A DNA stretch of 53,429 nt from Pseudomonadota bacterium. Its GTDB lineage: Bacteria > Pseudomonadota > Gammaproteobacteria > Competibacterales > Competibacteraceae. Under the pieces are notes generated by a model that had not been told where the DNA came from, searched no databases, and was given only the letters and a program-made list of their open reading frames with translations. The position numbers and the translations under genes are program-made. The first letter of the stretch is position 1, and every line of letters starts with the position of its first letter. This document shows positions 7,590 to 20,529 of the stretch, in pieces. Location: NCBI GenBank assembly GCA_018240295.1, contig JAFEGB010000104.1, positions 1 through 53,429 of the forward strand, read 5' to 3'.

Positions 7590-7607
7590 TCCTCGCCATA
7601 CTGACCG

Positions 7608-7639
7608 CCGCAGTTCCGGAAGCAGCGCCGGGACTGCGG
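7608..7639 (+). terminator. Hairpin terminator candidate after the nif accessory operon
   Basis: CCGCAGTTCCGG (7608-7619) pairs with CCGGGACTGCGG (7628-7639) with one G-T pair around an 8-base loop, 18 bases after the SIR2-like stop. The downstream sequence has only a short T-run (GGCTTTA), so termination may be incomplete. Confidence 0.6.
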
Positions 7640-7784
7640 TGGTCGGCTTTATGTGCCGGCCTCGTGCCCGGGGGGAGATTTTTGCCGGTCGCTGCATCCG
7701 CCGGCCGGCTGCGCGCGAATAGGGAGGTGTGGAGCTTGTTCGCTCCCGTCCCGATCCCGAAATCCTTCCCCGAGGAGCGCCGCC

Positions 7785-19264: not shown

Positions 19265-20086
19265 TCACGGCGGGCCGATGCGGCCGATGCCGGGCAGCTT
19301 CAGCGCCGGTCCGCCCGGATCGATGCCGGCGGTCAGGCCGAGCAGGTCGATCTCCAGGCCCTCCTCGACGGCGAGCGTCAGACCGGCGAGGCCGCCGAGC
19401 GTCAGCTGCCAGCCGGTGCCGCTCGGGGCCGGGGCCAGCCAGCGGCCGTCGACCGGGTAATCCTTGCCGATCGCCGTCGCCGGCAGCGCCAGACGCAGCT
19501 CCGGCACCGCGCGCGCGAGCTGGGCGACGAAGGTGTTGCTGTTCGGACCGGGCCAGACCCGGTAGCGATCGGCGTAGGGATAACGCCGTGCGGCATCGAG
19601 CAGGCGCGGGATGGCGTCGGCCGCGGCCGCGCCGCGCAGCTCGGCGAGCAGCAGCGGGCGGTTGCCGTACCAGTAGGCGTCCGGGACGCCGCTCGTGATG
19701 CTGACCGCCGAGCCGCCGCGGTACAGCCGCCAGCCGATCACCTCCAGCCGCTGCCAGGCCGGCGCCCCGGCCGGTTTCACGGCGATCCAGGTATGCACGC
19801 CGAAGATGCCGCGCCAGCCCCAGGCGCGCGCTGCCCAGGCCTGCACGATGGCTTCGGGCTGGTGGCCGGCCTCGGGCACCAGCCGGGCGCTGTCGTGGCG
19901 GGCCGCGTACCAGGGTTGATCCGTTGCGCTCAGCGCATGACGTGCGGCCTGCACGACAACCGGAAACACGAATACGAGCAGCAACCAGAGCATCGGGCGA
20001 CGGTACCAGCGGCGGGTGCGGCGGCGGGGCTTGCCGCCGGCGGGTTCTTCGGGATCGGCAGCGGAAGTGGCAGGCAGATCGGACAT
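19265..20086 (-). CDS. DUF3750 domain-containing protein
   Basis: The 273-residue protein has a basic N-terminal region (KPRRRTRRWYRR), one membrane anchor (MLWLLLVFVFPVVVQAARHA, about 52-71) and a periplasmic DUF3750 domain with GIFGVHTWIAVKP, WRLYRGGSAVSI and the characteristic DRYRVWPGPNSNTFVAQLAR stretch. The family is conserved in proteobacteria and has no known function; the domain resembles papain-like/NlpC-type folds only loosely. ATG at 20086 precedes the acidic leader. An unusual array of five 11-bp repeats lies 41-95 bases upstream. Confidence 0.87.
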   Translation of the reverse strand: MSDLPATSAADPEEPAGGKPRRRTRRWYRRPMLWLLLVFVFPVVVQAARHALSATDQPWYAARHDSARLVPEAGHQPEAIVQAWAARAWGWRGIFGVHTWIAVKPAGAPAWQRLEVIGWRLYRGGSAVSITSGVPDAYWYGNRPLLLAELRGAAAADAIPRLLDAARRYPYADRYRVWPGPNSNTFVAQLARAVPELRLALPATAIGKDYPVDGRWLAPAPSGTGWQLTLGGLAGLTLAVEEGLEIDLLGLTAGIDPGGPALKLPGIGRIGPP

Positions 20087-20126
20087 GGCGGCGGCGGGTT
20101 CTGAAAGCGGGGGGCGGAGACGGTTC

Positions 20127-20181
20127 AGTGTGTAGCCGGTGTGCATCCACGGTGTATCCGGCGTGCATCCGATGTGTATCG
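20127..20181. repeat. Five phased 11-bp tandem repeats upstream of the DUF3750 gene
   Basis: Units AGTGTGTAGCC, GGTGTGCATCC, ACGGTGTATCC, GGCGTGCATCC and GATGTGTATCG follow one another without gaps (20127-20181). The consensus is roughly GGTGTGYATCC. The period is close to one helical turn, and the array sits in the presumed promoter or leader of the leftward DUF3750 gene, as expected for cooperative protein binding on one DNA face. Confidence 0.65.
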
Positions 20182-20296
20182 GGTGGACGCCGGAATCCTG
20201 ACCATGCAGCGGCGCGCGGCGCCGGTCTTTCCCTGTCGTTGCAGAAAGATGGCGTTAACAGCAAGAAATCCTGATGCGACCCCTAGAAATGCTGGT

Positions 20297-20325
20297 TTGT
20301 CGCTGCGAAACCCCGTCCGCACAAT
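20297..20325 (+). promoter_or_regulatory. Candidate sigma-70 promoter of the small RNA
   Basis: TTGTCG (20297-20302) and CACAAT (20320-20325) are separated by 17 bases. They resemble TTGACA and TATAAT with two mismatches each. Transcription would start near 20331-20333 and run to the strong terminator at 20381-20413. Confidence 0.45.
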
Positions 20326-20330
20326 CACTT

Positions 20331-20413
20331 CCGGCATCTTCGTGATGTTTCTCCTCCCATCCTCCTCTGGTGGTCGTGTTGGGCCGGGTCGTCGGACCCG
20401 GCCCTCTTTTTTT
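20331..20413 (+). ncRNA. Candidate small RNA with anti-Shine-Dalgarno motifs
   Basis: A predicted transcript of about 80 nucleotides begins downstream of a plausible promoter and ends in a perfect intrinsic terminator. Its middle part is pyrimidine-rich and carries CTCCTCCC (20351-20358) and TCCTCCTC (20360-20367), both able to pair with ribosome-binding sites. No gene ends on this strand upstream (the DUF3750 gene lies leftward), and the next gene starts 300 bases later, so the terminator needs a local transcript. Its features resemble small RNAs with CCUCC loops known in alpha- and betaproteobacteria. No sequence family was recognised. Confidence 0.5.
20381..20413 (+). terminator. Strong rho-independent terminator
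   Basis: GGGCCGGGTC (20381-20390) and GACCCGGCCC (20395-20404) form a perfect 10-bp stem closed by a GTCG tetraloop, followed by TCTTTTTTT. It is the best-formed intrinsic terminator in the window. Confidence 0.9.
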
Positions 20414-20434
20414 GTTTCACGGCCGGTGCCGGCG

Positions 20435-20529
20435 GGATGTCGGGGAATGCCCTGTTTTTCCCTCTTTTCCGGTTCCTCCCCCGCGCGGGGCGAGGCGCTG
20501 ACAGGACGGCAGGTTCCCCGGTGATCGCC
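20435..20529 (-). repeat. Palindromic MITE-like element, copy C (inverted)
   Basis: Read on the minus strand, this segment aligns with copy A over its whole inner part: CGGGGAACCTGCC at one end, GCGCCTCGCC and GCGGGGGAGG in the core hairpin, then a purine-rich stretch (ACCGGAAAAGAGGG) and GGCATTCCCCG at the other end. Outer arms are GATCACC and GATGTC. It follows the small RNA terminator. Confidence 0.55.

Follow-up and report, generated by a model that had tools for sequence, protein, structure and literature searches.

Predicted small RNA locus

The window (53,429 nucleotides, contig JAFEGB010000104.1) comes from a Plasticicumulans-like genome of the Competibacteraceae, a group known for PHB storage. 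Between a DUF3750 gene and an SRAP gene about 300 bp downstream lies a predicted small RNA gene (Table 1), in the order weak promoter, 5' hairpin, CTCCTCC-CA-TCCTCCTC-TGGTGG, perfect GC terminator, and seven Ts. A sequence check placed the promoter pair, both CCUCC motifs, and the terminator where the initial annotation had put them. As it had also said, no rightward gene feeds the terminator, because DUF3750 runs leftward and SRAP begins beyond it.

Table 1. Features of the locus, in window positions
Feature	Position	Strand	Remarks
DUF3750 gene	19265-20146	-	Neighbor
Sigma-70-like promoter	20297-20325	+	-35 TTGTCG, 20297-20302; 17-bp spacer; -10 CACAAT, 20320-20325
Predicted small RNA, ~83 nt	20331-20413	+	Start placed from promoter, end from terminator
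5' hairpin GGCAUC-UUCGU-GAUGUU	20333-20349	+	Common to Competibacteraceae copies (CATC...GATG)
First anti-Shine-Dalgarno motif	20351-20358	+	DNA CTCCTCCC, RNA CUCCUCCC; from sequence, alignment, and fold
Second anti-Shine-Dalgarno motif	20360-20367	+	DNA TCCTCCTC, RNA UCCUCCUC; mostly inside hairpin loop
GGUGG (GGTGG)	20369-20373	+	Nearly invariant in family; able to pair with either CCUCC
Intrinsic terminator	20381-20413	+	Perfect 10-bp stem GGGCCGGGTC/GACCCGGCCC with GTCG loop, 20381-20404; then TC; seven Ts, 20407-20413; stem compensated in relatives
SRAP gene	from 20718	+	Neighbor

The promoter has the hexamers and 17-base spacer first described for it but is weak, with 8 of 12 consensus bases against the 9/12 threshold of the promoter scan; paralog promoters have better hexamers (TTGACG...TATACT), with the -35 and -10 at a comparable distance from the RNA. 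The terminator, called the best in the window, is indeed the best formed among the terminator-like sites listed across it; a site at 7601-7646 has a longer stem but a weak T tail. None of 200 shuffles folded as well as the region 20325-20413 (z = -4.4). In predicted folds of the family, GGUGG pairs with one CCUCC and the other is left in a loop or a free strand; in the window copy, UCCUCU sits in the loop and UCUCCUC is single stranded upstream. The claim that both CCUCC motifs are unpaired was thus half right, since one is free or in a loop but the other pairs with GGTGG in the predicted fold.

The window has a single occurrence of the double CU motif, and a count that tolerated two mismatches was not above the 1.9 matches expected by chance, so that the motif by itself proves little; folding (z as above) and conservation lift the site above chance. 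The UCCUCCUUU core presumably resembles the 3' tail of 16S rRNA. The exact tail, TGGATCACCTCCTT, was not found in six Competibacteraceae genomes, in which the rRNA is probably unassembled.

Family distribution and conservation

BLASTN of 20240-20440 against relatives turned up more copies, among them one at a second locus of the window genome. Scanning named genomes with a pattern found copies in Plasticicumulans acidivorans, P. lactativorans, and Competibacteraceae/Gammaproteobacteria metagenome-assembled genomes (MAGs). A covariance model (R1) was built from a 34-sequence alignment of Competibacteraceae copies and sub-threshold matches to Rfam model RF02278, in which the core CUCCUCC-A-UCCUCCUUUGGUGG is followed by the terminator and UCCUCCUUUGGUGG is nearly invariant. 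R1 matched 127 of 369 genomes and 100 of 272 genera of the gammaproteobacterial class (including beta), a breadth that is partly by construction because sub-threshold RF02278 matches were included, with most matches in genomes outside the alignment; a sample of the phylum gave just two weak matches outside the class. The window copy has the family core (CUCCUCC-UCCUCCUUUGGUGG) and an intrinsic terminator and scored 47 bits (20346-20411; E value, 3.5e-8 per genome); its sequence is part of the R1 alignment, and the BLASTN and pattern matches in relatives are independent of R1. By covariance model, its genome holds six copies, on contigs C5 (the window; one), C286 (two), C107 (two), and C270 (one).

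Across 83 distinct sequences, in an alignment fitted to the model, which favors pairing, 98.2% of pair cells were kept and 199 cells had changed on both sides, a result that none of 500 shuffles matched; when the partner was slid by one column, pairing fell to about half. The initial annotation had staked its reading on conservation of the CCUCC motifs and the stem in relatives, and motif, GGUGG, and terminator are kept in paralogs and in about 100 genera. Its core claim of a small RNA gene is accordingly supported by fold, conserved family, and terminator covariation, with transcription itself presumed.

The second motif is the best conserved part of the family, with UCCUCCUUU in most members. 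Three loci in other Competibacteraceae genera (L182, L197, and L209, in genomes G014, G012, and G004) have lost the first CCUCC and kept UCCUCCUUUGGUGG and PhaR-type boxes. Since these genera keep the second CCUCC alone, UCCUCCUUUGGUGG looks like the essential part of the RNA.

Members often lie in tandem pairs or triplets 100 to 280 bp apart (L007, 1338-1571; L002, 1352-1574; L120, 1501-1843; L177; L187). As aligned, the two C107 copies of the window genome do not differ within the RNA, and another copy pair in that genome adjoins a lactate permease gene. In three related genomes, copies (L002, L007, L231, and L120) stand beside UreD or gamma-glutamyltransferase, of nitrogen metabolism.

Three other accounts of the locus were weighed. 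The family could be real and the window copy a decaying paralog with little or no transcription: its promoter is weak and without a PhaR box, its core has one inserted C and one T-to-C substitution, and five other copies exist in the genome. Against this, the perfect terminator with its seven Ts, the 5' hairpin, and GGUGG are all intact, and relatives that are clearly conserved score in the same range as its 47 bits, so that decay appears unlikely. The RNA could instead be the message of a small peptide gene, with an ATG at 20345 and a frame running through the terminator (MFLLPSSSGGRVGPG...). That ATG is kept in Competibacteraceae copies, and Bordetella S17L likewise holds a 32-codon frame (PMC11722255), but the distance from GATG to GGTGGT is 25, 29, 31, 32, or 33 nt between copies, which shifts the frame; the ATG is absent from most other family members, and what is conserved is a nucleotide core and terminator pairing. 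The peptide reading is scarcely credible and was rejected because its frame changes from copy to copy. Nor, in all probability, is this a leader or attenuator of the SRAP gene in place of a trans-acting RNA. SRAP is near and on the same strand, but paralogs occur in tandem pairs and beside unrelated genes (urease accessory, lactate permease, phosphatidyltransferase, gamma-glutamyltransferase, and phasin), and the SRAP-leader reading, very improbable in consequence, was rejected on the grounds of those unrelated neighbors.

Relation to described RNAs

At cut-off, an Rfam search of the window gave zero RNA family matches. The best model, RF02278, scored 26.6 bits against a gathering cut-off of 50, and relatives in the same bacterial family reached at most 36.1 bits. 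Among 20 family loci searched at the Rfam cut-off, five beta-type loci matched RF02278 and the other 15 matched nothing at the small RNA position. Scores for RF00519 (MmgR/alpha-r8; 20.5 bits versus a cut-off of 41; best relative, 25.2) and RF02877 (Neisseria NmsRb/RcoF1; 18.1 bits versus 52) were also below threshold; NmsRb/RcoF1 is a CU-rich regulatory RNA of similar general size.

RF02278 is the Betaproteobacteria toxic small RNA family, with the Burkholderia double-hairpin RNAs ncS03, ncS05, ncS27/bdhR1, and ncS62, which are predicted to cover ribosome-binding sites and whose levels rise in glucose medium; overexpression of ncS27 slows growth (PMC5688073). The window copy has the same order of CU-rich 5' strand, CCUCC loop, and U-tailed terminator, and shares GGUGG, short length, and several copies per genome. 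However, the RF02278 first hairpin is perfect (8-bp stem UCCACCUC/GAGGUGGA with a UCCUCCU loop), whereas the window copy fails to form several of the model's pairs, and its predicted fold has a short bulged stem at that position and a separate 5' hairpin. The window RNA might be a plain RF02278 member, nothing new, under a model that is too narrow: RF02278 is the top Rfam match for the window and most relatives, the parts stand in the same order, and beta members of the R1 family pass its cut-off. The low window score, the unformed 8-bp first hairpin, and the failure of all non-beta members tested to reach the cut-off speak against this, and we consider it rather unlikely.

Bordetella pertussis S17, akin to the RF02278 RNAs, is an RNase E-processed, Hfq-dependent RNA with ribosome-binding-site targets that represses BP2158 and is reported to be conserved through Betaproteobacteria (PMC11722255). 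By its published description, S17 is alike in its conserved CU-rich 5' part (reported as identical through Betaproteobacteria, with an identical segment of 27 nt) and U-tailed terminator (PMC11722255); it differs in being a single locus whose ~190-nt precursor is cut by RNase E, with higher levels in Bvg+ mode, whereas the family here is short and multicopy, with its own promoters. MmgR of Sinorhizobium meliloti (alpha-r8, RF00519) is a short Hfq RNA tied to PHB, and PhaR/AniA binds the MmgR promoter at the type of box described below (PMC12542648, PMC8401924). It is alphaproteobacterial, however, the window copy is below the RF00519 cut-off and lacks the box, and the resemblance is one of working and not of membership.

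The RNA kind is therefore already known; its gammaproteobacterial spread and this clade are uncatalogued in Rfam. The word "undescribed" in the initial annotation stands for the clade, which is without an Rfam match at threshold, and falls for the kind, given the RF02278 RNAs and S17. A search for the core sequence in paper text gave one unrelated match only, and none of the papers listed in a search on small RNAs in Plasticicumulans or Competibacter was relevant.

PhaR-type operators and proposed action

The sequence TGCRNYGCA, the core of the PhaR consensus TGCRNYGCASMA (PMC6201568), overlies the promoter in many family copies. With promoters taken by covariance-model coordinates, the box was present in 26 of 85, versus 1.5 in shuffles, and in 1.2 to 1.7% of control windows. 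By group, it was found at 11 of 18 Competibacteraceae-like loci, which are no independent test because the idea of the box came from them, and at 10 of 16 Burkholderiales-type (beta) loci (~0.5 expected each). In the class sample, phaR was present in 13 of 14 box-bearing genomes versus 24 of 100 others (p = 9e-7), in 9 of 10 versus 24 of 100 with the discovery family excluded (p = 7e-5), and in 8 of 8 versus 14 of 55 after collapsing to families, which removes shared ancestry only partly (p = 8e-5). The lone box-bearing genome without phaR is a MAG of 86% completeness; phaR is present in its congener.

In the same bacteria, 12 of 30 phasin loci have promoters with paired boxes around the -10, at a spacing of 26 to 30 bp. 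Several small RNA promoters have a box pair in the same positions, spaced 23 to 24 bp, a layout resembling that of Ralstonia phaP1, where footprinting located PhaR sites around the start site and upstream of the -35 (PMC12849132). In P. lactativorans, the gene immediately downstream of one RNA copy encodes a phasin. The promoter of the window copy has no recognizable PhaR-type box, and so lacks this likeness to MmgR; boxes are present at its paralogs on C107 and C286 and in relatives. Control by PhaR of part of the family, excluding the window copy, is well supported at the level of sequence. The operator over family promoters is new here. In the main text of two papers on RNAs of the RF02278 type, PhaR, PHB, and phasins go unmentioned. 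Direct binding of PhaR to the MmgR promoter (PMC12542648) is a precedent for such PhaR-small RNA wiring.

The family has a conserved core, terminator compensation, copies at unrelated loci, and no kept reading frame, and hfq is in the genome. We judge it likely that the locus is an independently transcribed anti-Shine-Dalgarno small RNA gene, one of six copies in a family with a PhaR-type operator in many members. Transcription would start from the sigma-70 promoter and end at the U-tail, and the RNA would be held by Hfq, for which the genome has a gene (G000:C252) and the RNA a terminal run (seven Ts). By base pairing with the Shine-Dalgarno sequences of several mRNAs, the CCUCC motifs would then reduce translation of these messages, and masking of one motif by GGUGG may confine the effect mainly to strong sites. 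That the family RNA acts on Shine-Dalgarno sites is very likely, judging from its core and from described relatives that act at ribosome-binding sites (PMC5688073, PMC11722255). Because of the operator over the promoter, the RNA is probably PHB released in many members: PhaR would repress it without PHB, and PHB granules would draw PhaR away. The window copy, without a recognizable operator, may be constitutive or otherwise controlled.

More tentatively, and at somewhat less than an even chance, an old anti-Shine-Dalgarno family may couple translation to carbon storage in beta- and gammaproteobacteria alike, with PHB-titrated PhaR releasing multicopy RNAs that damp strongly initiated genes and with the Burkholderia "toxic" RNAs in the PhaR regulon. 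If so, an RNA class known from Burkholderiales and a handful of further beta groups would reach about one-third of sampled gammaproteobacterial genomes, and many copies would bear a storage-polymer switch. This would explain the rise of the Burkholderia double-hairpin RNAs in glucose medium (PMC5688073) and offer a testable posttranscriptional layer for PHB hyperaccumulators such as Plasticicumulans; a rebuilt Rfam family would allow immediate annotation of these RNAs.

A second promoter class was seen at many loci (L036 and L062 among them), with TTGACA, 17 to 18 bp, and then a conserved ATATTAGAAAATNCTTACATACTGATT-like stretch. Promoters of the ATATTAGAAAATNCTTACATACTGATT type, a broad motif, occur in at most about half the genomes (57/114) and are anticorrelated with phaR.
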